Shown here in pieces: positions 14,447-40,222 of a DNA stretch of 64,000 nt. Both the position numbers and the translations under genes were made by a program. Under the pieces are notes generated by a model. That model searched no databases. It was not told where the DNA came from and worked only from the letters and a program-made list of their open reading frames with translations. Source of the DNA: Mucilaginibacter gossypii (GTDB lineage Bacteria; Bacteroidota; Bacteroidia; Sphingobacteriales; Sphingobacteriaceae). Within the stretch, counting starts at the first letter, position 1. Each line of letters begins with the position of its first letter. The stretch spans positions 166,091 through 230,090 of the forward strand of contig NZ_FNCG01000007.1 in the NCBI RefSeq assembly GCF_900100945.1, written 5' to 3'.

Positions 14447-14737
14447 AGAGTGCCCCCACTCCGTCAATTTTAAAGCAATAAATACGGGGGTATACCTGGG
14501 CATGTTTAGCTACCGGCAAACCTCTTGAAAAAACGTTTGGAATATATTGGTCATATGATGTTCCTCCAATATTTAATAACCCCAATTTAACATTCACATA
14601 TTATATTTATAACCCACAAAATACTCTATATCAAATAAAATCTATATATTCATGAACAATTTGCAGGGCCTGGTTCTCCCCGGATCTGACCTTCGCAATT
14701 AAATTTAACCTTTCACAATTTGAAATACCCGGTCTGC

Positions 14738-23700: not shown

Positions 23701-23740
23701 GGGTAATTCGGTAAAAATTTTTAAGATAGAAAAAAAATGA
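14738..23740 (+). CDS. Giant FG-GAP/VCBS and IPT repeat surface protein, type A T9SS domain
   Basis: The start is ATG 14738 (MSNIFFVKHFKFICAIVIIF, a signal peptide); TTG 14720 is an unlikely alternative. About 3000 residues contain 35 calcium-binding loops of the DIDGDGKPDL type, grouped 7+7+7+7+7 at about 15.16-16.15, 16.75-17.78, 18.63-19.64, 20.03-21.08 and 21.46-22.52 kb. The groups are separated by nine IPT/TIG-like domains of two subtypes (NIVFFG...VPV and VTFGG...AIV). After the last IPT come an Ig-like domain (NYYQWLRDGVKIDG), an SprB-like segment (SVSCKGSTNGAINI) and a type A sorting domain (IIPYPNPFQNTLHLNIG, ending KIFKIEKK). It is probably secreted through T9SS to the cell surface as a long calcium-dependent adhesin. 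A lipoprotein gene overlaps its stop by four bases. Confidence 0.92.
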   Translation: MSNIFFVKHFKFICAIVIIFKSSSLFAQAPVISSFMPVSGAPGTTVTINGSNFSSNPTDNIIFFGDTRSTVNSATANQLSITVPVGAVSSQISVTAKGLMSYSRNAFHVTFDGAGVLAPTAFEKEIDAPLPSYSGMLRSKDIDGDGKTDLVFSNPSNKAISIYRNVNTHVGSISASTLAPKADINIGNEAIYIAVEDLNGDGKPDVVGYNSQEANLNVLRNTSTPGNISYAAAVNITGAKGMVALTTADINSDGKPDIIFLNPNGRVFSILINKSTASDIAFAPKADFSTGGNPNTFTIADFDGDGKIDVAISNRLINDNSPVISLFQNTGNSTTVSFGPQINYSTTTSSYTLAAGDMDGDGKVDIVFPNYGNLAVLQNTSVPGSMKFNFWDFTDPTGSQPTGILSDVDGDGKPDVIESTGYITHIVKNTSTPGSFSFAPAAAFNTNTPSLFSDLDGDGKPDLILASYTSGPTLGILRNKINEPAVNLISPEIGLSGTPVNITGLNLTKALAVTIGGVNAASFTVNSPTSITAIVGSGATGPVVVITKYGTGKGADFVYSVPAPVINSFTPLSGPVGTTVTISGKNFNAIAANNIVFFGVAKATVTSATATQLVVKVPVGANHQPITVATNGLMAASSKIFDVTFTASGPFAPNSFNKRIDIPVPDYPSDVLIGDIDGDGKTDIIAFNSSTFSFFRNTSSVGNTSFSTNKDVTPSGNIDRAIISDIDADGKPDLIYVSVTGKKVVILKNTSIPGTFSFATPITIADGAAPNGVTAADFDNDGKTDIAVSHAANNTFSVLRNTTANGNIAFAPAVVITSLKPDYLGGVFPGDLDGDGKIDIIAISEISQNQFNLTFKNTSTIGHISFTPVNAYQNGYHPTNVIIADIDGDDKPDMTVPAGYSTYLVYKNTTSSGGKIDFANAVGYEAGLYPKGLSIGDLNGDGKPDLVAPDGKFPGSIGVFKNLSTVGTIQLAAKVDYTKGSSNSNISGTGFGGSAVADFDGDGRLDMVVSTFYGNTISVSTNTINAPAISSFTPASATRGSTITITGTNLNGTTKVTFGGVDASSFTIKSATSITAIVGDGATGDVAITTPVATGKLSGFTFLPGPTLKSFSPLTAGPGKTVTLTGTHFAGATAVTFGGINARSFTVISDEKITAVVNNTAASGIISVTVPGGKASLDGYVFTLNPIVSAFSPAYGAIDTSVVIAGNNFNAGVAGNIVYFGATKAVVTAATTQQLSVKVPVGATYQSISVLNTSSGLTGFSVIPFVGTFKTKYSIAAADFDPKVDFALSNGAKASAISDIDGDKKPDVIVVNSLANTVSIFRNTAVNGSITSNSLASKFELTTKNTPQAITVTDIDGDGLKDIAVTALGDNSVSVFLNKSAGGNISFAAPVILASGASPYGIAADDLDGDGKTDLIATNPAANTVSVFKNLSTPGKILFALKVDIATGNTPHGIATADINGDGLPEILTANFSDATFSVLQNQSIAGIIDAASFAGHTETTAINGAESIAVGDIDQNGTPDVVIAGTQSNAVSVFRNSLQDQRPTFLEQLILNTDEGPASVAIADLDGDSRPDIITANSTSNTLSVFRNIMPLGGVPAAIFAPKIIIAAPNNPSFVSIGDLDGDGKPDIISVKTQNNTLSILRSHPAQSTVVPPPVISSITPGKGAIGTSVTVKGNNFNTSADANTVFLGATQAKVNTATATQLNITVPVSATYQPLSVLNTANHLTGYSKTPFITTFESKKSVSEADLSSAVNFPTNASPYGVSVGDIDGDGKPDLVISNPDRHSISIFRNTSVNGTITTSSFAAKVDFTINGEPQKVIVTDIDGDGKPDVIVSGYYAPKSFVSILRNTAVKGAINASSFAAGVDFTVPDASKMQVTDIDVDGKPDIALGDLTILLNHCKQGGINADSFPEQALYSLGSASYAYAFYDINNDGKPDVIFNDNYSHIAIALNKSVPGNLSLGSPIKLKNSLSGVSLQIADIDGDGKADIMAIDYDLNAVYFHRNISVGNNINENSFEDYIKFPANQKAFNAGGSSEYLQVADIDGDGKPDLLNISSGLKVFSLFHNISTANTPSYTYFDTKFDVKAGNNVSGIAAVDIDGDGKPDIVTVNRDDDTFSIFRNNPTPAVVLTPPVVTSVSPASGPAGTIVTIKGKNFNGAAAGNIVAFGSATAVVKSATAESISVSVPVSATYESPSVLNTANGLTGYWSDKFISTYPPKKDDITEQDFELPVSVYGYMAEYVRVGDLDGDGKPDLIIHDGYQTISVLRNQSAIGPINPAAFGAVGTLSSYRFTVGTDPQIIKVADIDGDGKPDLLVSYYSFYGVGISVLLNRSTPGNINFAPKVDIAYYSTPFGANTYVVETGDVDSDGRPEILIANSSLNGISVLPNTSKKGTVSFVSRFDFEAGTQPSGLNLTDIDGDGKPDLVISNKMDNTVSVLRNITAPGIINAASFEKHVDYATVASPTSVITGDLNADGKADIIVVSSEPVPGISILQNKSTTGVINAGSVGAKVDITSLLSARGIAIADIDGDAKPDLVTGHTVIRNIKGNGNISRASFAANEVPVMKINKFFKAFSVEDIDGDGIPDIVGVDGGDLSIVRNNPLAIGQPYISSFSPEYAIKGTTVTLTGKNFDKVSSVTFGGTPAASFKIASPTTITAVVATGASGNVAVTAPAGSSMRPGFNFVPAPIITANGPTKIFAGTGVQLTVNQSSGNYYQWLRDGVKIDGATSINYTATQSGSYMVIVTVNNISQTSAAISITDSPDLPADNFKLAITSVSCKGSTNGAINITALQNLNYIATITGNGVNNQYTFRHDVTISNLTAGTYSVCISIAGQSNYKQCFTAVVNQPQDLSVYSTINNENKTVTLAMTGGEEYHILLNGTSYSTKNRNITLALTDGNNDLTVTTDKLCQGVLQRIINFSDKIIPYPNPFQNTLHLNIGNAIFKNVSVEIYDIGNGRKVYAKQFGDQSGKISLNLTDLSSGLYGLRLNMGNSVKIFKIEKK

Positions 23741-24598: not shown

Positions 24599-26647
24599 TT
24601 ATACTGATATCTTTATATTATCTCCATTTTTAACCACATACCGGTAATTATGGCCGTTACGTTTAATGGTAATCAACAGGTGGCCTGCATCCTTTTTTTC
24701 CACTGCCAGATCGAAAACCGTCCCAAACGCGTGAATATTATCCAGTCCCATATGATCCCAGGCCTGTGGTAAGCGGGGAGTGCAATAAACGCTGTTGAAA
24801 CCCACAGGCCTCATGCCGAACAGACCTTCGGTAAAAATGCGGCAATATAATCCACTCTCTGCCGAAAGATGGCGTTGGTTACCTTCGGGATAGGCTTCTA
24901 CAGCATATGGAACATGCTCGCCCAAAAGCCGCCGCTGCGAATAGTATTTCAGGAACCTTACCGCCTGTTCGGTTTCACCAGCCTGTAATACCCCACGGAG
25001 TGCGTATAAGGTTGAGCGGTCCCAAAACGTATCGTTCCCGGCTTGCGTGGCCAGGCCGTCGGCAGTCCATAGCTCGTGCGAAAACAGGGCATTTATTGTA
25101 CCCTTGCTACGGCCATAGATACCCATGGTTAGCGGAACACAGATCCAGGAGCGCAATATGGTGTTGGTTTCATAATACTTATAGGTATGATAGCCGGCTA
25201 TATCGGCCCCAAAATATTTTTCGATAGCATTTTTAAGTGCTGCTGCCCGTTGTGCATATTGTGTTGTTTCTTTTTTTGGCAGATGTAGTTGCCGGGCTAA
25301 AAAACTCGCGGAGACCAGGGCATCGTAATACAAGCCATTGGTAGATAAATTGGCTTTGCCTGATGGAAACCTGCCTTCCAATTCATCACTTTGCGATTCT
25401 ACCACCCCTTGTTGATTAATGTGCCTGCGGTTATACTCCAGACACCATGATATTAACGGCCAAAGTTTTTTTGCCGAATCGATATTTCCTAAAGTAAGTG
25501 CATAGCGGGATGCTCCATAAGCTATCATAGCCTGGTCGCCCCTATCACCGGCACCTTTCCAAACAGTATCTCCCTCAGCCACGATAGAGCTTGGCAAGGG
25601 CTTATAATCTGGGTTCATATAACCGGCAAACAAGCGATACGCATTCATAGCCGACAGGTTCCCTATCCTATCGCCCGAAAAAGCAAAATAAGGATTAACA
25701 TATTCGGCCTGATCATTAGCCCAGATAGCTGCGTAATACGATAAACCGCCAGGCCCATGCATATAACCGCTCTTTGTTTTAAAAATGCTTTCTGTAGCCC
25801 TGATCTTGGCAAATGCAAACATGGCGTTCAAAACACTATCGGGTGTTTTCAATTGTAAAGGGCTCAGGATCTCTTCAATACGGTGTTGCCGCGCCTGCTC
25901 TTCAAGATCGGCCCTTACAGGCATTAGTGATCCAGGGTGATCAGTAGCCTGGTAGTCGATAACAAATGTGTATGATTGGCCGGGCTGCAATGTTTTGCTA
26001 CCGTCATTTACCGATTGCATAATAACTGTGTGCGGCGCGCCTTTACTTTTAAGGGTATCTGTAGTTACTTCGCGCTTTAAGTGCTCCATCACTACCGAAA
26101 CTGGTTTATTGCCGACGTTGGTAAACTTATAAGTTTCAAGAGCTATCGGTTTATCTGTTGATGGGAACAGGCTATGCTCAATATTAACCTGCCTTAACCT
26201 GTCTGCGCGATAAGCAATGCGCATAAAGCCGTGCTGGTTAATACTTTTTACCGGTAAACTTATTCCGCCTTTTGCAGCATCGGGCCATAGTAACTCGTCA
26301 TCTACGTATATCCGGGGCTGGGCATTATCATCAAATGTATACGCGATGTGGCTCCGGGTATCATCGGGGAGCATCCGGAATGTTGGGAAAACCACTGTGC
26401 GTGAAAGATGGCATAAACCCGCCGCATCTACGTTATAAGCAATCCACAACGATACTTTTTCGCCCGACATTTCGATATGATCGGCATGTGGAAGACGACC
26501 GTTTATATTCCAGGTAATACTTCCATCGGGTTGTAAAGCCCATCTGTTATCCTGTTGTGGTAAAACCAATTGCTGCGCTGAAACTAAACGCAATTGTAAA
26601 AGAAAAATGAGTATGATTAGGCTATGTTTTCGCAAGCAAAAATTCAT
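24599..26647 (-). CDS. Six-hairpin glycosidase-like protein, secreted
   Basis: The 682-residue protein has a signal peptide ending near VSA-QQ. An N-terminal ~270-residue beta-rich region is followed by an alpha/alpha-barrel segment with aromatic and acidic blocks (GYMHGPGGLSYYAAIWANDQ; QSDELEGRFPSG; AGNDTFWDRSTLYALRG). A short C-terminal beta domain closes it (FGTVFDLAVEKKDAGHLLI). This layout fits six-hairpin glycosidases such as GH78-like enzymes, but I cannot fix a CAZy family. It lies 34 bp downstream of a second enzyme of the same fold class and is read from the same promoter. A role in the periplasmic breakdown of an oligosaccharide is inferred from the SusCD locus. Confidence 0.75.
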   Translation of the reverse strand: MNFCLRKHSLIILIFLLQLRLVSAQQLVLPQQDNRWALQPDGSITWNINGRLPHADHIEMSGEKVSLWIAYNVDAAGLCHLSRTVVFPTFRMLPDDTRSHIAYTFDDNAQPRIYVDDELLWPDAAKGGISLPVKSINQHGFMRIAYRADRLRQVNIEHSLFPSTDKPIALETYKFTNVGNKPVSVVMEHLKREVTTDTLKSKGAPHTVIMQSVNDGSKTLQPGQSYTFVIDYQATDHPGSLMPVRADLEEQARQHRIEEILSPLQLKTPDSVLNAMFAFAKIRATESIFKTKSGYMHGPGGLSYYAAIWANDQAEYVNPYFAFSGDRIGNLSAMNAYRLFAGYMNPDYKPLPSSIVAEGDTVWKGAGDRGDQAMIAYGASRYALTLGNIDSAKKLWPLISWCLEYNRRHINQQGVVESQSDELEGRFPSGKANLSTNGLYYDALVSASFLARQLHLPKKETTQYAQRAAALKNAIEKYFGADIAGYHTYKYYETNTILRSWICVPLTMGIYGRSKGTINALFSHELWTADGLATQAGNDTFWDRSTLYALRGVLQAGETEQAVRFLKYYSQRRLLGEHVPYAVEAYPEGNQRHLSAESGLYCRIFTEGLFGMRPVGFNSVYCTPRLPQAWDHMGLDNIHAFGTVFDLAVEKKDAGHLLITIKRNGHNYRYVVKNGDNIKISV

Positions 26648-26681: not shown

Positions 26682-28139
26682 TTATTTCACGTTGATATTA
26701 AGCTGCTGACCGGGTTTAACTGTAACTTCGGCAAAAGATATGTGTTTACCCCAACTATCGGTTGCATGTTTAACAGGTAACTGTTTTCCGTTGGCATACG
26801 CCAGTTTGTAATCGCCGTAAAACATTGCTTTCCAACTGACCTGCAATTTACCGGCATTGTTTAGCGAAGACTGCTTTGTACCCTGATGAACAACATTGAT
26901 CACTGTACCTAGCAACGGTAAATTACTGATACCTGCGTTGCCGTTACCGGTTGTCTTATAAATGGTACTGATGCTTTGCGAACGGGCATCTGGCCTTATC
27001 CCCATCAAGCCCTGCACAATGCCTTCAATTACACCAAATGAAACTTCGGGATATTCCCGTCTTTCGGTATTTTTATCAGATAGGTACAACAAGTAATCAC
27101 GAGCTTTGTCGCAGGAGTTATTATTATAAAATATTAACGGCAGGTAGGATGTATTTTCAACATTCCAGGTTTTGGAGGCCAGGTGAGACAGCGTTTTTTT
27201 GATACGCGTAGTATCTTTCAAAGCATCAAACCATAGCAAAAAAGTCTCGCCCTCATCCCTGCCAAATTTGCCATCCTTGCCGTAATAGGTAAAATACAAG
27301 TTATCCTTTGTGTTCCACCAATCAGTTTCCAGTCGCTGCCTGTATTTTTCGGCGTTCAAGGCATAGGCTTTGGCTTCGGCCGATTTACCTTTGCCGGCCA
27401 ATATGGCCGAGTACGTTGATAATCCCTGGTAAAGGGCAGCTAACAGGTCGACACCGGTTTTTAAATTAGGTACACCTTCCGAATAGGAAGGTAATCCCCG
27501 GCAACGATGGAAAGAATCACTTTCATTAAAAGGCACAGGCGCATTAGGGTGCGCAGGCCTGTTTAACATAGAATCTGCCGACAGCACCCAGGTGTCGATA
27601 TAATCTTTAGCTGTTTTTTCCTGAAAATTGACAAATACCGCATCGTTAATATAATACTTATTACCCGTCCACAAATACATTCGCCAGCTGGCATACAGCA
27701 CATCAAAATTAGCCGGGAGATTATACCAAAACTCACGGTCGTTCCGGTAATCTTCGGGTGCGGGCTTGCCTGCTTTATTCATCTCCCAGTATGAACACCA
27801 GTTTTTTGATGCAGACATATTGCGGGCGAACAGGGTAAGCATGTTTTGGTTTTCGCGCTTTAGGCCAAGTATCTCGCCGCCTATGCTTTGATGAGATACA
27901 TCCCGCATACAAAAGGCATCACGTGGGGGCAGCGCTGATTCGTACCAAGGCCCTACCGGGTCGGCAGGATGTCCTTTATAATGCAGCGCCATATCTTTGG
28001 CCCAGGCAAATGCCTGTTCTATTCTTTTATCAGACGAGGAAAATTTCACGTCCTGGGCAAAGGCAGACAAATTGCTCAAAATGCATAGTATTCCCGTAGC
28101 CGTTAAAAGCCTGTGAATTAATAAAGGTTTAAAATTCAT
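26682..28139 (-). CDS. Six-hairpin glycosidase-like protein, secreted
   Basis: The protein has 485 residues with a signal peptide (cut near AFA-QD). Its body is one alpha-helical barrel with motifs suited to six-hairpin glycosidases: WYESALPPRDAFCMRDVSHQ near residue 65, FNESDSFHRCRGLPSYSEG near 203, and FGRDEGETFLLWFDAL near 295. A short beta tail follows. Acidic residues in RDVSHQ or RDEGE could be catalytic, but this is a guess. It is the first gene of a two-gene unit under a promoter carrying the operator shared with SusC. Confidence 0.75.
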   Translation of the reverse strand: MNFKPLLIHRLLTATGILCILSNLSAFAQDVKFSSSDKRIEQAFAWAKDMALHYKGHPADPVGPWYESALPPRDAFCMRDVSHQSIGGEILGLKRENQNMLTLFARNMSASKNWCSYWEMNKAGKPAPEDYRNDREFWYNLPANFDVLYASWRMYLWTGNKYYINDAVFVNFQEKTAKDYIDTWVLSADSMLNRPAHPNAPVPFNESDSFHRCRGLPSYSEGVPNLKTGVDLLAALYQGLSTYSAILAGKGKSAEAKAYALNAEKYRQRLETDWWNTKDNLYFTYYGKDGKFGRDEGETFLLWFDALKDTTRIKKTLSHLASKTWNVENTSYLPLIFYNNNSCDKARDYLLYLSDKNTERREYPEVSFGVIEGIVQGLMGIRPDARSQSISTIYKTTGNGNAGISNLPLLGTVINVVHQGTKQSSLNNAGKLQVSWKAMFYGDYKLAYANGKQLPVKHATDSWGKHISFAEVTVKPGQQLNINVK

Positions 28140-28195
28140 AATTGGTCTATTCTGGTCTATTTTATAAAAATAGATAATTTTATTTATTGTCCAAA
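28140..28195 (-). promoter_or_regulatory. Promoter with tandem TGGTCTATT operator (glycosidase unit)
   Basis: On the minus strand, a TTTG (-33; 28192-28195), a 19-bp spacer and TATTTTTA (-7; 28165-28172) fit the Bacteroidota promoter. Directly downstream, 28140-28161 holds two copies of TGGTCTATT (plus strand 28143-28151 and 28153-28161). The block of 22 bp is identical at 35738-35759. The half-site TGGTCTA resembles known GntR/HutC-family sites. Confidence 0.75.
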
Positions 28196-28196
28196 C

Positions 28197-29795
28197 TTAT
28201 TTTGCAAGTACGAGCGGAGAAAACAAAATAAACATCAACACCATCAGCAGCAATAATATACAACTGTAAATATGCCGGCTCTTCCACGGCTTGATATCAA
28301 CCAGGGTATTGATCTGCAGCCCGTAAGGTTGTGCCATAGGATAAAACTTACCGATAAGCAGCATCAGCCCACAGGTTATCACAAATAATGTGGCGAGGAT
28401 ATGCAAAAAGTGGATATGCAGATCAAACACTGTTTGTGTAAGCGCATAGGTTGTAATAAAAAAGGCCAACCCGATGCTGGCTGCTTTGGCGGGCACTCTC
28501 TTGGTAACCAACCCGATAAACATAATGGTAAAAATGGGCACGTTAAAAAAGCCGTTCACCATTTGCACATAAGTGTAAAAGCCGTTTTTTACGAATATGA
28601 TAAAAGGTGCAATGAACATAGCCAGCAGGCAGATCATGATCTCAAATAATCGCGCTGCGCGGACCATATGCCTCTCGTTAGATATCCTGCCGTTCTTTTC
28701 AGCCCATGGTTTATATATGTTTAATATAAACAGTGTACTTGAGCTATTGAGGCCGGCATTAAAAGTAGTGAGGGCTGCGCCAAAAATAATAGCAGCAATA
28801 TAACCTGCGATAAAAGGTGGAGATACAAGGCTATCCAGTTTAGGGAATACTTCGGCCGTGTTATCCAAATGCGTAAAAATATGCACTGCTATCAGGCCGG
28901 GCAGGTTTAGTAATAACGGCGAGATCAGTTTACCCAAACAGGCTACTGCTATACCCTTCTGGCTGCTTTTTAAATCGCGCGAAGCCAAAAGCTGTTGAAC
29001 TATGTATTGCTCGGTTCCCCAGTAATACAGGTTTACTAACAGCATGCCGGTAAATAAGGTACTGAAAGGGATTGGATCGGCAGCGGTACCGATGCTGTTT
29101 AAATGTTCACGATGGTTATTCAGCAAAATATGCAGCCCTTGCATTATACTCCCCTGCCCCAAATACCGCAAGCCAAAAAAAGGCAGCAGAAGGCCTCCGG
29201 CAAATATGCCGAAGCCGAGCAAGGTATCTGAAGTTGATATAGCTTTCAATCCTCCTAATAATGAATACAGGCACCCTATTGTTCCCATTATCCAGATCAG
29301 GATCCAGATGGTTGTCCAGTAATCTGTTTTCCACACATCGCCAAAATGGAACAGGCCGTTAAAGGCAACGGCGCCGCTGTACAAAACCGATGGCAGCAGG
29401 TTGATAATATAACTTACCAGGAATATGCATGAAACCAGTTTGCCGATACCGGGGCCGTAACGGGCAGTAAGGTAATCAGGAGTGGTTGAAATGCCCAGCT
29501 TAAGGTACATGGGCATTAAAAACTCCGATACCAGCAGCATAGCCAGTACCGATGTCATGCCCCAGGCCATGACGGACATATTGTGGGTGTAAGCCAGCTC
29601 GTTTTCGCCTATAATAGTTGCGGTATTGATATTGGTAAACAGCAGACCTCCGCCAACCAGTAAAAACCCCAGGCTCCTATCGGCAAAAAAGAAACCATTA
29701 AGGGTTTTGATTTTATTTTTTCTTGATTTATACCAGGATAACAGGCCGACTATGCCCGTAAAAAAAAGAAAACTGGTTAGTATGATCCAATTCAC
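28197..29795 (-). CDS. Sodium:solute symporter (SSS family)
   Basis: The 532-residue protein is hydrophobic throughout, with about 13-14 membrane segments, and begins with a transmembrane helix. Family marks include GFFFADRSLGFLLVGGGLLFTN near residue 34 and YLTARYGPGIGKLVSC near 108, with CLYSLLGGLKAISTSDTLL around 175. SSS/SGLT transporters couple sodium ions to sugars, acids or similar solutes. It lies 21 bp after the GntR regulator gene and directly precedes the glycosidase promoter, so it probably imports the sugar released by the enzymes. The substrate cannot be read from the sequence. Confidence 0.92.
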   Translation of the reverse strand: MNWIILTSFLFFTGIVGLLSWYKSRKNKIKTLNGFFFADRSLGFLLVGGGLLFTNINTATIIGENELAYTHNMSVMAWGMTSVLAMLLVSEFLMPMYLKLGISTTPDYLTARYGPGIGKLVSCIFLVSYIINLLPSVLYSGAVAFNGLFHFGDVWKTDYWTTIWILIWIMGTIGCLYSLLGGLKAISTSDTLLGFGIFAGGLLLPFFGLRYLGQGSIMQGLHILLNNHREHLNSIGTAADPIPFSTLFTGMLLVNLYYWGTEQYIVQQLLASRDLKSSQKGIAVACLGKLISPLLLNLPGLIAVHIFTHLDNTAEVFPKLDSLVSPPFIAGYIAAIIFGAALTTFNAGLNSSSTLFILNIYKPWAEKNGRISNERHMVRAARLFEIMICLLAMFIAPFIIFVKNGFYTYVQMVNGFFNVPIFTIMFIGLVTKRVPAKAASIGLAFFITTYALTQTVFDLHIHFLHILATLFVITCGLMLLIGKFYPMAQPYGLQINTLVDIKPWKSRHIYSCILLLLMVLMFILFSPLVLAK

Positions 29796-29816
29796 CCTGT
29801 CCTGGTTTTGTTAAAT

Positions 29817-30827
29817 TTATAGTGTGCTCCGTTCAAATAAAATGGTTGGCACCGTTAGGCTGATCTTTTCTTTATTAACGATAGCGCGGCCGGCTAAGGT
29901 GCCCATGCTGGCAAAATCGGCAGAAAAGGTAGTAACCCCTATGATCTCTTTAGCCGGCTCGTCGTTACTTGATAGTACACCTACATCTTTACCCGGCACA
30001 AGCTGCATACTTTTACAATCACGCATAATTTGCCATAAGGCAAAGTTGTCCAGCGTAAAATAAACTTTCCCCTTTTCAACCGAACCATGGGCGTACTCCT
30101 TAATGATGCGGCCTTTAATATTAAAATCCTTCAGGAATTTTTTAAACGATGGCACGATCTCTTTCGGATCAAGAGATGCCGGCGAATGATAAAATATGAT
30201 CTCATCAAACTTCCTGATCTTAGGAGCAAGCTCGGCCAGGATGCGGTATGATGATTGGCCAAACTCCTGGGTGATGTGGTTGAAATCGCCATCGATAGGT
30301 TCATACCTGTCAAACATCAGGAATTTATTTGGAGGAATGGCTTCCAGTAGTTCTTTTGTTTTTGGATGAGGGATAGGCGCTATTACATACATACCATACT
30401 TTCCCTTGATCTGGTTAAGGATGGTTCCGAAGATCTCGATATCACCATGATGAAAATATGGGTTCAACCCGATATTAGGACCAAGCTCATGACGAAAGTT
30501 ACGGTAAAACTGCTCCTCAAAACTATCCAGGTTATACATTAGCAAAGCTACATTCAGTGTCTGTTCGGCATTACTGTTGGCCACAAAATAGCCATGCCTG
30601 TTTTTCGATTCAACAATGCCCCTGCTAATCAGTTCCCGGTACGCCTTGATAATCGTTTCCCTCGAAAACCCTAACTCCTTGATCAGCTTGTTTACTGATG
30701 GCAGCATCTCATCCTGGCCAATCACCTTCTCGTTAATAGCGTTGATGATGCCTTGTACAAACCTATCATGCTTAGAGTATGAAGGGATATCCGTAAGCTT
30801 TTTGATCTCCTGAAAAATTTTATCCAT
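29817..30827 (-). CDS. GntR-type transcriptional regulator with LacI-like sensor domain
   Basis: The start is ATG at 30827 (MDKIFQEIKKLTDIPSYSKH); the longer ATG at 30869 adds 14 residues without family character. Residues ~15-85 form a winged helix (MLPSVNKLIKELGFSRETI, then ELISRGIVESKNRHGYFVAN). The rest resembles a type 1 periplasmic-binding fold (LACI/GalR-like), as in Bacteroidota GntR sugar regulators. It is flanked by SusCD, the symporter and the glycosidases. The two promoters of the locus carry a shared TGGTCTATT repeat, the likely binding site. The palindrome TGTAC-CA-GTACA lies 2 bp upstream of its start. Confidence 0.88.
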   Translation of the reverse strand: MDKIFQEIKKLTDIPSYSKHDRFVQGIINAINEKVIGQDEMLPSVNKLIKELGFSRETIIKAYRELISRGIVESKNRHGYFVANSNAEQTLNVALLMYNLDSFEEQFYRNFRHELGPNIGLNPYFHHGDIEIFGTILNQIKGKYGMYVIAPIPHPKTKELLEAIPPNKFLMFDRYEPIDGDFNHITQEFGQSSYRILAELAPKIRKFDEIIFYHSPASLDPKEIVPSFKKFLKDFNIKGRIIKEYAHGSVEKGKVYFTLDNFALWQIMRDCKSMQLVPGKDVGVLSSNDEPAKEIIGVTTFSADFASMGTLAGRAIVNKEKISLTVPTILFERSTL

Positions 30828-30920
30828 TGTACCAGTACATTTTAGCCAAAGTAAGAAAAAAGCCGACAAGCCTGTTGTTCTTTTTCTTCATTGCCAACCG
30901 GCATCCAATTCCGGTCGGGT

Positions 30921-30965
30921 AAACACATGTTTGGCAGCCCCCGGGGGGCTGCCAAACATGTGTTT
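30921..30965. terminator. Strong intercistronic hairpin between susD-like and gntR-like genes
   Basis: A perfect inverted repeat with 22-bp arms (30921-30942 and 30944-30965) has almost no loop and is GC-rich at its tip (CAGCCCCC/GGGGGCTG). Seven T residues follow on the plus strand, only three on the minus strand, where the locus is read. It may end or attenuate the SusCD transcript or protect its 3' end. Confidence 0.7.
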
Positions 30966-30970
30966 TTTTA

Positions 30971-32599
30971 TTAATAGCCGGGGTTTTGTTTCAGGTTTTT
31001 ATTCAGATCTATCTCTGTTTGAGGTATAGGGAATAAATAATTTTTAGCGGCATCAAATACACGCGGCGTCCCTACTTTAACGGTGGTACCCGGTGTGAGT
31101 GTCAGCGCGCCGTTGGTTGGGTTCACGCTACCTTGCAAACTGCCGGTAACCTGCCCGTTCATTACCTGCTGACCAATTTGCCAGCGCTGAATATCAAACC
31201 ACCTCAAACCCTCAACAGCCAGCTCAACCCGGCGTTCGCGGCGCAACAGTGTGCGCAAGCTTGCCTGATCGTTGTATTTTGCCTGATCAACCGCCGGCAT
31301 GCTCACGTCAGGGCGTTTCCGTACCGAATTGATGTCATCAAATACCGTAGCGTCAATTTTATTGCTTTCGATCTTAGCTTCGGCATCCATCAGTTTTACT
31401 TCGGCAAAGCGGATCAGGATCACGTTCATACCAACCTGGTCCATGTTTGGAAAGTCGGCAATTACTGGAGTATATTTTCTTAAACCATAAGCCGATGGAC
31501 TACAATTGTTGTCGCCCCAATGATCGATAGTTTTCGGACTGCCCGACAGCGGATCATAGTACTGCCCGTAAGGCAACCTGCTGCTATATTGCGTACCTGG
31601 ATAAAAAACGGTTGCAGTAAGCCTTGGATCCCTGTTTTTATAAGGCTGCGCTGCATCATATCCTGATGTTGGATCATCAATAGTTTTACCATTACTTGTT
31701 TCATAAGCATCTACCAGGCTCTGGGTCGGAGCTATGGAATTATAGCCCCCTAATGAGTTAATGGTCATGTTCCTGGCCCATCCAAAATTGTTGTCACTTG
31801 CTTTAAACTGAACATCCAATATTACTTCCTGGTTATCGGCAAAAGGCTGACGGAACAGGTTTACATAGCTCGGATAAATGCTGTAGGTAAACGGCGGCGA
31901 CATAAGCGCCTGACAATCCGCAATGCACTCGGTATACATTTTATTAAAAAGCTCAATCCTCGCTTTCAAAGCGATGGCCGCACCACGGGTTACGCGGCCA
32001 ATATCCGCCCCCGAATAACTAACAGGCAGATCGGGGGCAATGGCAGTAAGCTCTTTTAAAATATAGGCTACAACATCAGCCTTAGGTGTCTGTGCTGCTT
32101 TATTAGCGTCATCTGGCGAAACATTGTGCTCAACCAATGGAACTGCGCCGTATAACTGGCTAAGCGTAAAATATTCGTATGCCCTTAAAAAACGGGCTTC
32201 GGCAATAAATCTGGCCTTTAATGTGGCATCCATATTGGTGCCTCCAACATTGTCCAAAAACCAGTTGCAGGTTTGAATACATTTATAATTCCATTTCGAG
32301 TACCCGGTATTGGTTGGCGTTGCTATTCCCGCCGAAAGTGACAACCAGTTTTCCCACGGAAACTGATCAAAGGTGTTATCTGAATTGTTATCTGCAAAAA
32401 CTCCATAATAGCCGTTGTTACTGCCTCCCCATTTTGAATAGCAGCCGTTTAAGGCGGCAAGGGCATCGTTGGATGATTTCCACAGTACGTTATTGGTGTA
32501 GGAGTCTAATGGCGCTCTGTCCAGGAAACCCTTTCTGCATCCTGATGCGGCCACCGAACCTAATATAATTGCGGTTATGATTAATTTTTTCATCGACAT
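30971..32599 (-). CDS. SusD-like outer membrane lipoprotein
   Basis: A 542-residue protein with a lipoprotein signal (lipobox VAASGC, cysteine near residue 21) and typical RagB/SusD marks: FLDRAPLDSYTN at the mature N-terminus, FIAEARFLRAYEYFTL near 130, and a C-terminal LLRRERRVELAVEGLRWFDI block before the end NLKQNPGY. It binds glycans at the outer surface and acts with the TonB-dependent SusC pore. It lies 11 bp downstream of the SusC gene and shares its promoter. Confidence 0.95.
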   Translation of the reverse strand: MSMKKLIITAIILGSVAASGCRKGFLDRAPLDSYTNNVLWKSSNDALAALNGCYSKWGGSNNGYYGVFADNNSDNTFDQFPWENWLSLSAGIATPTNTGYSKWNYKCIQTCNWFLDNVGGTNMDATLKARFIAEARFLRAYEYFTLSQLYGAVPLVEHNVSPDDANKAAQTPKADVVAYILKELTAIAPDLPVSYSGADIGRVTRGAAIALKARIELFNKMYTECIADCQALMSPPFTYSIYPSYVNLFRQPFADNQEVILDVQFKASDNNFGWARNMTINSLGGYNSIAPTQSLVDAYETSNGKTIDDPTSGYDAAQPYKNRDPRLTATVFYPGTQYSSRLPYGQYYDPLSGSPKTIDHWGDNNCSPSAYGLRKYTPVIADFPNMDQVGMNVILIRFAEVKLMDAEAKIESNKIDATVFDDINSVRKRPDVSMPAVDQAKYNDQASLRTLLRRERRVELAVEGLRWFDIQRWQIGQQVMNGQVTGSLQGSVNPTNGALTLTPGTTVKVGTPRVFDAAKNYLFPIPQTEIDLNKNLKQNPGY

Positions 32600-32610
32600 T
32601 TTTTTAATAA

Positions 32611-35600
32611 TTAAAAGGATACCTCAAGACCAAGGGTATTAGTTTTTAACTGCGGATAAGAGCCGTACGCGTTGTTACCGGCACTGGTTTCAGGATCAAC
32701 CCATTTATAAAAGCTGGTGAATGTGAGGATGTTCTGCCCGCTGTAATAAACCCTCACTCCCTTTACCCCTATGCGCTGCAGTGGTTTGCCCGGAATGTTA
32801 TAGCTTACCAATAAATTTTTGAGCCTTAAATAAGACGCGTTCCTAACCCAAAAAGATGATACAAAGCTCTGCGGATTATTCTGAGAATAGGTTGACCATA
32901 GCCTTGGGAAAGTAGCCGAGGTATTTTCCGGAGTCCAGGCATCGAGCAATGCTGTAGTTGGATTACCGATATTAGGCTGTTGCAATGAACCTAACTCGAA
33001 GCCCTGAACATAGTTTTTAACACCCAAAGCTCCCTGGAAAAAGGCACTTACATTAAAACCTTTCCAGCCTGCGCCAAGTGTAAAACCAAATGTTGTTTTT
33101 GGGAAAGGCGTACCCAGGTACACACGGTCGTTACCATCAATAACACCATCAGGTGTGCCATTAGGGCCGCTGATATCCTTATACACCAAATCGCCAGGGC
33201 CAATAACGCCTCCGCTTTGCTTAGCATGCTGGGCTACCTGTTGCTGTGTTTGAAAAATGCCTTCTACCTGATAACCGTAAAATGCTTTGATAGGTTCGCC
33301 AACAACCAGGCCACTCGAGATAGATCCGGTACCTGCCAGATCGGTTATTTTATTGGTAATGAAGGATGCGTTTATTGCAATGTTATAAGATGCACTGCCG
33401 ATCTTGTCACGGTAAGCAGCAGCAAACTCCCAACCTTTGTTACGTACAGAGCCCGCGTTTTGATAAGGTGTGGTAAAACCATAAACACTGCTGGCTGGCA
33501 GCTGCAATAAGATGTCGTTGGTATTTTTAACAAAATAATCTGCTGTGAAGTTCAATTTGCTGTTCAGCAGTTCCATATCAAAGCCAACGTCGGTAGTAGT
33601 TGATTTTTCCCAGGTGATTAGCTTGTTAGCTCCGTTATTAAGCGCGATACCTGGTGCCAGCGTTTGGTTAAATGAATAATTTTGTCCGCTTGAAATAGTT
33701 GAAATAGCGGGATAAGGACTAATTATACTAAGCGCGCCCATACTGGCCAGCGTTTGACTGCCGTTGTTAGGATTTACCAAAGTTTGGTTACCCAGTTTAC
33801 CCCATGAAGCCCTTAGCTTAAGCATCGGAATGGTACCGGATAAAGATTCGAAAAACGATTCTTTCGAGATATTCCAGCCAGCCGAGAACGAAGGAAATAC
33901 GCCCCATTGCTGCCCCCTGGCAAAACGGGATGAACCATCATCGCGAATATTGGCTTCGAGTAAATACCTGTCATCGTACGAATACCTCACACGACCAAAG
34001 TAAGATAGCAATGCCAGTTGACTGGCAGTACCGGCATTTTGCTGGCCAAGGGATGGTGCAGCGTCAATTTGCGATAACGAACTATTTAAAAAGTTTTGTC
34101 TGTAAGCATACAGGTACTGGTAATTGGTAAGCTCTTGCGAGGCGCCCGCTAACACATTGATGCTATGTTTGCCAAAAGTCCTGTCGTATTCCAGCAAACC
34201 CTGCAAGTTGTAGTAACTGTTAACCACGTTGGCATTGGCCAGTGAGCTTTGACTTATGGTAGTAAGTACCGATGAAGGATTTTGGGGATCGTAGTAAACA
34301 TCGGCCGGTTTAAACTCCTGCGCGGGATTTGTATTATGCCGGTATGCGAATGAAGGCTTGAAATGCAAACCTTTAACTGGTTCCCAATCTGCACCAACAT
34401 TACCGGTAAAAAGCGTATTTTGATTGTTGTTATACCCCGGCGAATTAAGCCAGGCAATAGGGTTACCAAACGAGAGGTAGTTATATACCCCGTTTTTATA
34501 TTGGTTTACCACGGTGCTGCTCATCGCGGCTGTTGTACCTATAATACCACCAATATCACCGCCGCCTAAGCCATCAGGAGCTTCTGTTGGTGCATATAAA
34601 AATGATAGATTGGCACTAACACTAAAGTTTTTTGTTAAGGCCGAGTTGATATTCATACGGGTAGAATATCGTTTGAAGTTTGATTTCGCGATAATACCAT
34701 CCTGCTGAAAATAACCGAGTGAAAAGGCATACTGCGTTTTCTCATCTCCACCACTGATATTCACCGCATGGTTTTGCTGAAAACCACTTCCCTTGTATAA
34801 AAAGCCCTGCCAATCGGTATTTGGATGCGTATCCGGGTCGGTTTGATTTTTAAACTTGGTAATGTCGTCGGCTGTCCAGTAAGGCGTTTGCCCTTCGTTG
34901 GCCAGAGCCTGGTTATACAGGGCAGCGGCTTGCCATGAAGGTAAAAAATCGGGCAGGTTTGATGGTTTCTGTTTACCAAAGTAGCCATTATAGTTTACCT
35001 GCATTTTGCCGCTTTTACCCCGTTTGGTCGTGATCAGTATCACACCATTGGCAGCCCTCGATCCGTAAATAGAGGCCGATGCCGCATCCTTCAGTACCGA
35101 AACAGATTGTACATCGTTGGGGTTCACGTCTGATAAACTACCGATAATCCCATCTACCACTACCATCGGATCACTATTGTTTAACGTTCCGATACCACGG
35201 ATGTTAATATTACCCGAAGTGCCTGGCTGCCCGCCCGTTGTAGTGACGGTAACGCCGGCCATGGTGCCCTGCAAAGCGTCATTAAGATTTGTAACCGGCC
35301 TGTCCTGCAGCTCCTTTGAGCCGATTGAAGCTACCGAACCCGTGAGGTTTGCTTTTTTCTGCGTACCATAGGCTACGACAACAACTTCATTCAGAACTTT
35401 TGTTTTTTTATCCGGAACCATGATTACGTTCCCATCCCAGTTAGCAGTAACCTTTACCGATTGTTTTTCATAACCGATAAAAGAAAACAATAGCATGGAG
35501 TTTTCTGATACGCTAATCTTATAAACCCCATCAGCATCAGTAACTACACCTTTAGCGGTGCCGACAAGACTAACGCTTACCGAAGGCATTGGCAAACCCT

Positions 35601-35721
35601 GCTCGTCCTTAACCCGCCCCGAAATTGATTTAAGCTGCTGGGAAAAAACCTGTTGAATACTGCATAACATGACACAGCAAAACATAACAAGCCCCAGTTT
35701 TTTAGGTACTTTTCTTTTCAT
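32611..35721 (-). CDS. SusC/RagA-type TonB-dependent outer membrane receptor
   Basis: The 1036-residue protein has a signal peptide, an N-terminal carboxypeptidase-regulatory-like domain (ISGRVKDEQGLPMPSVSVSL), a TonB-box/plug region (VVVVAYGTQKKANLTGSV; NIRGIGTLNNSDPMVVVDGI; SIYGSRAANGVILITTKRG) and a beta-barrel ending in the aromatic-terminal strand LGLEVSF. It imports oligosaccharides with the SusD-like partner encoded just downstream. It is the first gene of the locus; its promoter carries the same 22-bp operator as the glycosidase unit. The sugar specificity cannot be read from sequence. Confidence 0.96.
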   Translation of the reverse strand: MKRKVPKKLGLVMFCCVMLCSIQQVFSQQLKSISGRVKDEQGLPMPSVSVSLVGTAKGVVTDADGVYKISVSENSMLLFSFIGYEKQSVKVTANWDGNVIMVPDKKTKVLNEVVVVAYGTQKKANLTGSVASIGSKELQDRPVTNLNDALQGTMAGVTVTTTGGQPGTSGNINIRGIGTLNNSDPMVVVDGIIGSLSDVNPNDVQSVSVLKDAASASIYGSRAANGVILITTKRGKSGKMQVNYNGYFGKQKPSNLPDFLPSWQAAALYNQALANEGQTPYWTADDITKFKNQTDPDTHPNTDWQGFLYKGSGFQQNHAVNISGGDEKTQYAFSLGYFQQDGIIAKSNFKRYSTRMNINSALTKNFSVSANLSFLYAPTEAPDGLGGGDIGGIIGTTAAMSSTVVNQYKNGVYNYLSFGNPIAWLNSPGYNNNQNTLFTGNVGADWEPVKGLHFKPSFAYRHNTNPAQEFKPADVYYDPQNPSSVLTTISQSSLANANVVNSYYNLQGLLEYDRTFGKHSINVLAGASQELTNYQYLYAYRQNFLNSSLSQIDAAPSLGQQNAGTASQLALLSYFGRVRYSYDDRYLLEANIRDDGSSRFARGQQWGVFPSFSAGWNISKESFFESLSGTIPMLKLRASWGKLGNQTLVNPNNGSQTLASMGALSIISPYPAISTISSGQNYSFNQTLAPGIALNNGANKLITWEKSTTTDVGFDMELLNSKLNFTADYFVKNTNDILLQLPASSVYGFTTPYQNAGSVRNKGWEFAAAYRDKIGSASYNIAINASFITNKITDLAGTGSISSGLVVGEPIKAFYGYQVEGIFQTQQQVAQHAKQSGGVIGPGDLVYKDISGPNGTPDGVIDGNDRVYLGTPFPKTTFGFTLGAGWKGFNVSAFFQGALGVKNYVQGFELGSLQQPNIGNPTTALLDAWTPENTSATFPRLWSTYSQNNPQSFVSSFWVRNASYLRLKNLLVSYNIPGKPLQRIGVKGVRVYYSGQNILTFTSFYKWVDPETSAGNNAYGSYPQLKTNTLGLEVSF

Positions 35722-35737
35722 AATTGAGTTTTGATTT

Positions 35738-35796
35738 AATTGGTCTATTCTGGTCTATTATGTTATAAAAGTAGAAACTTTTTAAATACCGTCAAA
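35738..35796 (-). promoter_or_regulatory. SusC promoter with tandem TGGTCTATT operator
   Basis: On the minus strand TTTG (35793-35796), a 19-bp spacer and TACTTTTA (35766-35773) precede the 22-bp block at 35738-35759, which has two TGGTCTATT copies (plus strand 35741-35749 and 35751-35759). Element order and spacing equal those at 28140-28195. It is therefore a likely target of the locus's GntR regulator. Confidence 0.75.
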
Positions 35797-36784: not shown

Positions 36785-39700
36785 TCATTCATTTCGCAGG
36801 CTGTCGACAGGGTTGGCCAACGCAGCCCTAATAGATTGAAAGCTGATCGTAATCAACGCAATCGAAATCGCCGCGAACGCGGCTGCCGCGACCAGATACC
36901 ACTGGATAGTAGTACGATAAGCAAAACCCTGCAACCATTTTTGCATCGCCCACCAGGCCAGCGGCGTTGCAATAAATAATGCTATCACAACTAATTTCAA
37001 AAAATCTACAGACAACATACCTGTTATCTTCGATACGCTGGCACCCAGAACCTTACGGATACCTATTTCTTTGGTGCGTTGTTCCGCAGCGTAAGCTGCA
37101 AGGCCGAAAAGTCCCAGGCACGCTATTAAAATAGCCAGCGTACTGAAACACAAGAAAATTGTTCCCGCACGCTGCTCCGCACGATAAGTTGAATCAAAAT
37201 CGGCATCCATGAACGAGTAGGTAAACTGCTCGTTTGGTGAAAAGTGCTTCCATCTCTTTTCAATTAAAGCAAGCACGTTTGAAATCTCCCTGCCGCGCAA
37301 CCTCACATTGATAGCGCCATTATCGGGAGCATAATATAATGCTAAAGGCATAACTTCCTCGTGTAGTGAGGCATAATGAAAATCTTTAACAACGCCAACT
37401 ATATGATAAGGCTGGATTCCATATGAATCCCGGTACAACGTTTTATTCAAAGGATCTTTTGCGCCATACTTGCGTACAAATGCTTCATTTACGATCATGC
37501 CCGCACTATCTGTAGGCATATCTTTTGAAAAATTACGACCCGAGGCGAGCGTCAACCTCATGGTATGTATGTAGTCTTCATCTACCGGCCAAAATTCAGT
37601 CAGAATAACCTGTTTGATATCAATAAGCCGGGACGGGAAAAGACCGGTTCTCAACCGCAGGTCGCCGGTAGGCTGAAAAGCGCTCATACTCACATTTTCA
37701 ACCTCAGGAATCTGCTTCAATTCATTTTTGAATAAAGCAGCGCTGTTGCCCAGTACATCGCTGTTCTTAATAACTAGGACGTGGCTGCGATCAAAACCGA
37801 GGCTTTTGTTACGGATGAATTGGAGCTGATTAAAGATAACCAAAGTACTAATGATCAGGAAAATAGATATAGAAAACTGGAATACCACTAAAAAACTTCT
37901 CAGAAAACTGCCCTTAAAACCATTAGCAATCTTGCCCTTCAACACATCGATAGGTTGGAAAGCGGAAAGAAAAAAGGCAGGATATGCACCCGCTAAAAAT
38001 CCAACCACCAGGGCAATCAATAGTAATGTGGGAACCAGCCATACTAATTGTCCCCAATGCAGTGCCAGTTGTTTTGCCGCCAGTTGATTAAACATTGGCA
38101 ACAGCAACCAGGCTATTAATGCACCCATAAAAGCAGAAGCCACTGTCACTAGCATAGACTCAGTAAGGAATTGCACGATAATAAATTTTCGTGACGACCC
38201 CAGCACTTTTCTTACGCCTACTTCTTTAGTCCGGTTAGCCGACCGGGCGGTACTTAAATTCATAAAATTTACGCAAGCTATGAGCAGGATAAATATGGCG
38301 ATCACCGAAAATATATAAACATATTGAATATTGCTGCCCGCTTCCAGCTGATATTTTGCTTGATCGCGGAGGTGAATATCCGTTATGGGCATCAATACAG
38401 TTCTGAAATAATTGTCACCGCTGCTCCAGGCAGCCGGATTAAACGAATTTTTGATTTCGACAGCAGCGATCTCTTTTTCCAGCCGGTGTACATTAGCACG
38501 AGGTTTGAGCAATAAATAATTATGCATGCCGCCATAACCCCAGCCGTGTTGAGCACTTTCCGCACGCGAACTGTATGACAGGAAAAAATCATAGTGAAAA
38601 TGCGACTGCTCAGGAATATCTTTAATAACACCGGTGATTTTGTAGGCGCTGGTATCGTTGATGGTCAGCGTCTGCCCTACAACTGTTGTACGATTAAAAT
38701 ATTTTCTCGCCGTGCTTTCAGTTATTACGGCGCTGTGGGGGGCATCTAGCGCATTGGCGGGGCTCCCTTCAATCATCGGCAGGGTGAAAACCTTAAAAAG
38801 TGAAGATTCAGTAAACACAATCTTCTTTTCCTGTATATTCTCATTCCCTTTACGAATGTAAAATTTCGAGGGCGATAGAAACAGCCCGCCAACATCAATC
38901 ATGCGGGTCATTTGCTCAATTTCAGGAAACATGCCCTTAATGGTCGCAGGCAGGGGTTCTTCAGAAGTGGCGTACTGGTTCGCATTACCATTTAATTTAA
39001 CATCAAGCCCTATTCGGTATATACGGTCTGCGTGTTCGTTGTATTTATCATACCCGAGTTCATGAGTTACGTAAAAAACGATCAGTAAAAAGGTGGCCAG
39101 GCCCGCCGAAAGTCCGAAGATATTAAGAAGGGTGAAACCTATGTTTTTTTGCAGGCTGCGATAAGCGGTTTTCAAATAATTTCGGATCATGCTCTTGCGT
39201 TTGGGGCGTTGAGCTACCCGTACCCAGGTGCTTTCCCGAGGCAAGATTACTGGCTTATCAGCCGCCGGAAGTGTCAACTTATCATTTGACACTTCTTTTT
39301 TTAGCTTACGCTTATGTTCGGCCGGAGTTTGACCAGTTAATTCCTTAAAAAACCGGTTGAAAGTCGATTTAGAATTAAATCCCGAATCATATGCAATACC
39401 CAGCAAATTATAACGCTCGTAATCCGGATGGTGTAATTTCCTGATTACAGCCTGTATCCGCAACTCGTTGATAAAATCATTGAAGTTCTTTTTAAAAGAC
39501 TGATTAATAATACGCGACAATTCGTGCGGATGAATATCCAGCTTCTCTGCCAAAGTAGTTAATGATAGTTCAGCATCTTCATATAATCGATCGGCCGCTA
39601 CCACTTTTTTTAGCCACCTGCCCCTATCCCGTAAATTCTGGGGCACGGAAGTCGGCAAGGATTGTTCAGGTCTTGTATCCGATGCTGAAATGTTGCTAAA

Positions 39701-40222
39701 TCCAATCCAGATCAGTACCACAAGGATCCCAAGGACAATCAGGTCATTGAGCCAATATACAGCAGTCAGTAACAGGAGCACTTTGAGTATGCTGTCCAAT
39801 CGCCGGTATCTCATGAGCTGCCTGTCCATCAACACGGCTTGTTGACTCCGTTGCGCATCTCGGATTAACTGATGTGACAGGCACAAGTAGCCGGCCATAC
39901 TCAGCAGTACGATCCAGCCTGGAACTACCGGTAATAAAACCAGCGGGCCGAAATGCCACAGGTTACCGCGCTGAAATGTTCGCCCCGGATGGATTAATTG
40001 CAAAAAGTAAAAATAAAGTAAAGGTCCCCAGGCCAGCATTACAGATAACGGCAAGCCCGCAGCATGCAATAGCGTTACACTCAAAACCAAACTCAAATAC
40101 CGGTTGGCACTGCTGTTAATCCGTTTGCCGGACCATAAAAGCATAGCCACGGTAAACCCGGTAAAAATCATTCCGAGGAGAAAAAGCTCTAAGCTTTGAA
40201 TATGAAAGATGTTTGAATGCAA
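36785..40222 (-). CDS. Membrane AraC regulator fused to MacB/FtsX-type permease
   Basis: One 1145-residue chain. Residues 1-180 carry about five or six membrane segments. Residues ~205-310 are an AraC-type double helix-turn-helix (LSLTTLAEKLDIHPHELSRI; LLGIAYDSGFNSKSTFNRFF). A basic linker leads to Met345 (codon at 39190), where a complete two-half FtsX-type permease begins (MIRNYLKTAYRSLQKNIGFT). It has a periplasmic MacB-like domain, the cytoplasmic NRTKEVGVRKVLGSS and QRTKEIGIRKVLGASV loops, and ends VDSLRNE. No ATPase gene is adjacent. The architecture suggests transcription control coupled to permease state; the function is unknown. A sister protein lies at 50215-53841. Confidence 0.85.
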   Translation of the reverse strand: MHSNIFHIQSLELFLLGMIFTGFTVAMLLWSGKRINSSANRYLSLVLSVTLLHAAGLPLSVMLAWGPLLYFYFLQLIHPGRTFQRGNLWHFGPLVLLPVVPGWIVLLSMAGYLCLSHQLIRDAQRSQQAVLMDRQLMRYRRLDSILKVLLLLTAVYWLNDLIVLGILVVLIWIGFSNISASDTRPEQSLPTSVPQNLRDRGRWLKKVVAADRLYEDAELSLTTLAEKLDIHPHELSRIINQSFKKNFNDFINELRIQAVIRKLHHPDYERYNLLGIAYDSGFNSKSTFNRFFKELTGQTPAEHKRKLKKEVSNDKLTLPAADKPVILPRESTWVRVAQRPKRKSMIRNYLKTAYRSLQKNIGFTLLNIFGLSAGLATFLLIVFYVTHELGYDKYNEHADRIYRIGLDVKLNGNANQYATSEEPLPATIKGMFPEIEQMTRMIDVGGLFLSPSKFYIRKGNENIQEKKIVFTESSLFKVFTLPMIEGSPANALDAPHSAVITESTARKYFNRTTVVGQTLTINDTSAYKITGVIKDIPEQSHFHYDFFLSYSSRAESAQHGWGYGGMHNYLLLKPRANVHRLEKEIAAVEIKNSFNPAAWSSGDNYFRTVLMPITDIHLRDQAKYQLEAGSNIQYVYIFSVIAIFILLIACVNFMNLSTARSANRTKEVGVRKVLGSSRKFIIVQFLTESMLVTVASAFMGALIAWLLLPMFNQLAAKQLALHWGQLVWLVPTLLLIALVVGFLAGAYPAFFLSAFQPIDVLKGKIANGFKGSFLRSFLVVFQFSISIFLIISTLVIFNQLQFIRNKSLGFDRSHVLVIKNSDVLGNSAALFKNELKQIPEVENVSMSAFQPTGDLRLRTGLFPSRLIDIKQVILTEFWPVDEDYIHTMRLTLASGRNFSKDMPTDSAGMIVNEAFVRKYGAKDPLNKTLYRDSYGIQPYHIVGVVKDFHYASLHEEVMPLALYYAPDNGAINVRLRGREISNVLALIEKRWKHFSPNEQFTYSFMDADFDSTYRAEQRAGTIFLCFSTLAILIACLGLFGLAAYAAEQRTKEIGIRKVLGASVSKITGMLSVDFLKLVVIALFIATPLAWWAMQKWLQGFAYRTTIQWYLVAAAAFAAISIALITISFQSIRAALANPVDSLRNE

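Follow-up and report, generated by a model that had tools for sequence, protein, structure and literature searches.

Two copies of a 22-bp block in a carbohydrate locus of the soil bacterium Mucilaginibacter gossypii are most likely the operator of a GntR-family regulator encoded between them (29817–30827), which would repress both promoters and be released by a sugar (probability of about 0.87). This reading draws on the sequence, position and conservation of the block, on its restriction to GntR loci and on the predicted fold of the regulator. The analysed stretch of DNA (the window) comprises 64,000 nucleotides, and the locus lies on the minus strand throughout, with the gene order SusC, SusD, GntR, sodium symporter, GH_b and GH_a. 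Its features are as follows:

35793–35796, minus strand: TTTG, the −33 element for susC, separated from the −7 element by 19 bp
35766–35773, minus strand: −7 element of the susC promoter, TACTTTTA; the repeat begins at 35759
35738–35759, minus strand: candidate operator copy 1, before SusC, at about +2 to +20; its core is AATAGACCAGAATAGACC, YAGNN array TAG AC CAG AA TAG AC C
32611–35721, minus strand: SusC/RagA TonB-dependent transporter (profile match)
30971–32599, minus strand: SusD lipoprotein (profile match)
30921–30965, no strand assigned: perfect 22-bp inverted repeat with a 1-nt loop, between susD and gntR
29817–30827, minus strand: GntR regulator of 336 aa, with an N-terminal GntR winged helix-turn-helix and a sensor of the LacI/periplasmic-binding-protein type (AraR-type); presumed to bind the operator
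28197–29795, minus strand: sodium:solute symporter, PRK10484 family (612 bits, cut-off 401), probably for galactose-type sugar uptake
28192–28195, minus strand: TTTG, the −33 element for GH_b, with a 19-bp spacer to the −7 element
28165–28172, minus strand: −7 element of the GH_b promoter, TATTTTTA; the repeat begins at 28161
28140–28161, minus strand: candidate operator copy 2, immediately before the GH_b start codon, at about +1 to +20
26682–28139, minus strand: GH_b, probable (alpha/alpha)6 glycosidase with weak trehalase/MGH1-like similarity, below cut-offs
24599–26647, minus strand: GH_a, beta-sandwich plus (alpha/alpha)6 barrel, GH94/GH65-like fold

The label "glycosidase pair", given to GH_a and GH_b in the preliminary description, is plausible, although neither protein reaches the Pfam or NCBIfam cut-offs. 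The gap between susD and gntR folds 7 standard deviations more stably than its shuffles, and a shorter terminator-like hairpin is found in this gap in other species; the inverted repeat at 30921–30965 is a probable transcription end or mRNA hairpin. Therefore, gntR and the symporter gene probably have a promoter of their own, one without the operator. Outside the locus, a single open frame at 36785–40222 (minus strand) combines an AraC-type helix-turn-helix (PF12833) with a MacB/FtsX-type permease; what looks like a membrane protein carrying a DNA-binding domain could be either a genuine fusion or two frames fused. A secreted-looking protein of 3006 aa with many DIDGDGKPD-type repeat segments is encoded at 14720–23740 (plus strand).

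The block AATTGGTCTATTCTGGTCTATT is present in exact form at both sites, as the preliminary description had claimed. No third copy with up to 3 mismatches was found within the window, where 100 shuffles gave an expectation of 0. A search of the whole genome (7.1 Mb) with the 17-bp core TGGTCTANNCTGGTCTA revealed two exact copies, both at this locus; the five two-mismatch matches found elsewhere in the genome are at the control level (5 + 6). Internally, the block repeats itself directly with a 10-bp period (TGGTCTATT twice), and not in inverted form. An 18-bp core is conserved (coding strand, AATAGACCAGAATAGACC), and the AATT/TT flanking it is not.

According to the literature, the primary promoter consensus of Bacteroidota consists of TTTG at −33 and TAnnTTTG at −7 (PMC7366714). 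Both promoters agree with it at a spacing of 19 bp, the last base being A instead of G, and the coordinates confirm the earlier observation that TTTG, 19 bp and TAnnTTTA lie directly upstream of both copies on the minus strand. In the case of GH_b, the −33 element falls within the gap of 57 bp that follows the symporter gene. The first YAG follows the −7 element by 8 bp (susC) or 5 bp (GH_b); hence, counted from the promoter elements, the blocks would cover about +1 to +20, in line with the proposed position at or just after the transcription start, which we infer from the same consensus.

Analysis of 80 loci from Sphingobacteriales and Chitinophagales, chosen by their GntR (Mucilaginibacter, Pedobacter, Chitinophaga, Niabella, Flavihumibacter and others), revealed that the element resolves into tandem 5-bp units, YAGNN, with 3–8 units per array in a single orientation. 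The 10-bp direct repeat of the window is one version of this array, with just three full units at each site. In relatives, the units TAGAA, CAGAC, TAGTA and TAGGA occur, always direct and never inverted. All 65 runs of at least four exact YAGNN units were located upstream of a locus gene (SusC, glycosidase or gntR), and the reversed-letter control gave 2 such runs in the 80 loci. The distance from the end of the −7 element to the array is 0–10 bp in 73 of 75 cases, while that from the array to the start codon ranges from 3 to 331 bp, so the array keeps its place relative to the promoter and not to the start codon. Arrays also precede gntR in more distant relatives, suggesting autoregulation there; in Mucilaginibacter, gntR and the symporter gene have no array of their own.

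In all of the assigned arrays YAG is found on the coding strand, always downstream of the −7 element. Such a fixed orientation relative to transcription is not strictly needed by a DNA operator and counts against the operator reading. It would suit an array that works in the mRNA, where the first 20–40 nt could be bound by an RNA-binding protein or affect translation in a TRAP-like manner; TRAP targets are (N)AG repeats with 2-nt spacers, and the YAG units with their 2-nt spacing resemble them. Nevertheless, action in the mRNA is improbable, given that the array is confined to loci of one DNA-binding regulator and that the window has only three units. A target of TRAP itself was rejected as a candidate: a search for TRAP (PF02081) that detects it in B. 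subtilis as a control finds no homologue in the genome.

Because the 80 loci had been selected by GntR, scans in the reverse direction, from array to GntR, were performed. In 161 genomes of the family, only 19 of which possess an orthologue of this GntR, 12 promoter-anchored arrays were found, and 7 of the 12 lie within 2 kb of such an orthologue, a match that 12 random places would hardly ever be expected to produce. The remaining five lack a nearby GntR and are at background level; since the reversed-letter control (about 11) is close to the total of 12, the enrichment in these genomes is one of location only, not of number. Among 395 Bacteroidia genomes, two array matches were obtained; one precedes SusC in a locus that also encodes a GntR of 49% identity, the symporter and a GH36 alpha-galactosidase. 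With matches in just 2 of the 395 class genomes, a general promoter feature of Bacteroidota was rejected. A scan of one small other family for the array returned nothing. A wider regulon in the genome was also rejected, as four successive YAGNN units gave 4 matches, none at this locus, against 4 in the control.

In 61 Mucilaginibacter genomes, with the orthologue defined at ≥76% identity, the element was found in the locus in all 12 genomes that possess such a GntR, and in 10 of these both promoters carry it with no more than 1 mismatch. As for the two exceptions, the susC promoter lies off the contig in G018, and the susC array deviates in G049. Seven of the remaining 49 genomes have a single match (six with 1 mismatch, one exact). 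That in G026 adjoins a 56% identical GntR orthologue, and the exact array in G047 precedes SusC on a 4.3-kb contig of a genome that is 63% complete. No locus GntR was found in the stretch of DNA inspected around the matches in G001, G008, G030, G039 and G048 or around a second match in G018, and these were taken as chance. A scan of the genus for five YAGNN units gave no matches. Mucilaginibacter sp. SP1R1 (L042 and L091) carries a second, orphan GntR, 80% identical, which is accompanied by neither SusCD, symporter or glycosidase genes nor a nearby array.

As the pairing of GntR with the array is deduced from sequence, the array might instead be bound by a regulator other than the encoded GntR. 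This is likewise improbable: the array tracks GntR in scans that were not selected for GntR, and none was seen near GntR paralogues of about 30% identity, in a test tuned to 10-bp repeats only. Together with the two exact copies in 7.1 Mb, both flanking gntR, the co-occurrence favors the proposal of a shared operator and a strictly local circuit with the GntR encoded between the two units.

The regulator matches the GntR winged helix-turn-helix profile (PF00392) with an E-value of 3.2 × 10−11 and 43.2 bits (cut-off 27). Its sensor is modeled as a LacI/type I periplasmic-binding-protein fold (AF2 model, pLDDT 91), for which the top PDB folds are RbsR, PurR and ribose-binding protein; in the 49% identical relative, Peripla_BP_3 is found at an E-value of 2 × 10−4, below the cut-off. 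Domain profiles gave no match to a UTRA sensor, typical of the HutC subfamily. Because a GntR DNA-binding domain is joined to a LacI-type sensor fold, the regulator is AraR-type and not HutC; by its predicted protein architecture it is an AraR-type GntR, although neither an AraR orthologue nor a member by its site. AraR is the best PDB match for the DNA-binding domain; of the residues that contact DNA in AraR, R41 is kept (R56), while E30 and R45 are replaced by V45 and I60, respectively, in keeping with a different DNA site. No palindromic AraR-like operator was found at the two promoters, only the direct repeat, and both an inverted TGGTCTA pair and a palindromic TGGTCTAGACCA site are absent from them. 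The HutC/DasR assignment made in the preliminary description is therefore not borne out, the sensor being LacI-type without UTRA and the site not palindromic. The likeness of the TGGTCTA half-site to DasR sites is retained in part of the Mucilaginibacter set only, as relatives carry other YAGNN units.

What we infer is that GntR binds the array, cooperatively, that it represses and does not activate, and that galactose or a galactoside is the inducer. In the absence of the sugar ligand, GntR, probably in the form of at least two dimers acting cooperatively, would occupy the tandem array in both promoters (susC and GH_b, about +1 to +20) and block RNA polymerase. Sugar entering via the symporter would bind the LacI-like sensor and release GntR, leading to expression of the outer-membrane SusC/SusD and the two glycosidases, while gntR and the symporter gene of Mucilaginibacter, without the array, would be expressed at a basal level. 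GntR-family activators exist, and with this precedent the array could be an activator site from which GntR, sitting downstream of the start, would stimulate transcription. However, this is very unlikely, since the −33 and −7 elements appear complete unaided and +1 to +20 is a roadblock position, as in NanR (PMC8012715).

Within the genus, the window GntR shares 94% identity with its M. gossypiicola counterpart. In the orthologous loci, SusC and GH_b are each preceded by the core AATAGACCAGAATAGACC or its variant AATAGAACAGAATAGAAC. Comparison of the susC and GH_b promoters of the same genome gave an identity of 0.93 for the array, 0.45 for the core promoter and 0.29–0.32 for the outer flanks. 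The two arrays are matched by genome: only 32 of 20,000 random between-genome pairings reach the observed identity, as expected for sites of one protein, with a contribution of shared ancestry. Recently duplicated DNA without a regulatory role (a copied promoter segment or mobile repeat) would account for the identical sequence at the two window sites, but its chance is negligible, as the sharing is limited to the 18-bp core with flanks at background identity, and the pairing persists across genera; the footprint refutes it. In several species, SusC/SusD is replaced by an unrelated pair (35%/28% identical) and the array is retained. Loci L093–L101 have non-orthologous SusC/SusD compared with the window, the regulator, symporter, glycosidases and operators being retained.

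With regard to the substrate, GH36 or GH97-like alpha-galactosidases are found next to the GntR–symporter pair in 27 of the 80 loci, and GalK or GalT adjoins gntR in some loci; in the window, GH_a and GH_b occupy the place of those galactose enzymes. Members of the SSS family of permeases have been predicted to transport galactose in other bacteria (PMC5507952). Based on these neighbors and permease predictions, galactose or a galactoside is the best guess for the inducer and is slightly favored, and the inducer in Mucilaginibacter could differ from that of its relatives.

A more tentative suggestion, rather doubtful at present, concerns the 5-bp register. An AraR-type GntR might read half-turn steps, which would place successive units on opposite faces of the helix and lead to assembly of a polar filament of variable length downstream of the start; no description of such a recognition mode for AraR-type GntR proteins was found in the literature searched. 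If the register is true, it would represent a new, testable mode of DNA reading by a GntR-type repressor. The rule of a YAGNN array right after the −7 element locates the targets of a set of orthologous sugar regulators in two orders of Bacteroidota, a phylum with few known operators. It predicts an inducible galactoside-type locus and ties in GH_a and GH_b, glycosidases without a family assignment.

Inverted repeats are the usual target of GntR dimers. The HutC-subfamily regulators DasR and NagR (YvoA) have the half-site TGGTCTA in common with the window version, but the window regulator lacks UTRA and the inverted TGGTCTAGACCA arrangement is absent. Direct-repeat sites are known for the GntR proteins NagQ (TGGTATT), NanR and FarR (PMC4494728); NagQ and FarR differ in being HutC-type proteins of other bacteria without 5-bp arrays. 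Bacteroides HTCS and SusR also use direct-repeat operators in carbohydrate loci (PMC3878776), although they belong to other protein families, with a site spacing of about 21 bp or 67–77 bp. AraR of B. subtilis likewise joins a GntR winged helix-turn-helix to a LacI-type sensor, but it binds the palindrome At(T/A)tGTaCGTAcaa(A/T)T through contacts that include E30, R41 and R45 (PMC4218819), one of these three residues being shared here. The closest mechanism is that of E. coli NanR, a GntR-family regulator of a sugar locus with the operator (GGTATA)3, which needs two or more repeats, binds them as cooperative dimers and is released by sugar (PMC8012715). Like NanR, the regulator here would be a GntR-family repressor of a sugar locus with a direct-repeat operator downstream of the polymerase site, whereas NanR has a FadR-type sensor and three 6-bp repeats compared with a LacI-type sensor and 3–8 units of 5 bp. 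By analogy, the regulator may work like NanR without being a member of that group. The literature searched, with partial coverage, contained no description of such an array.
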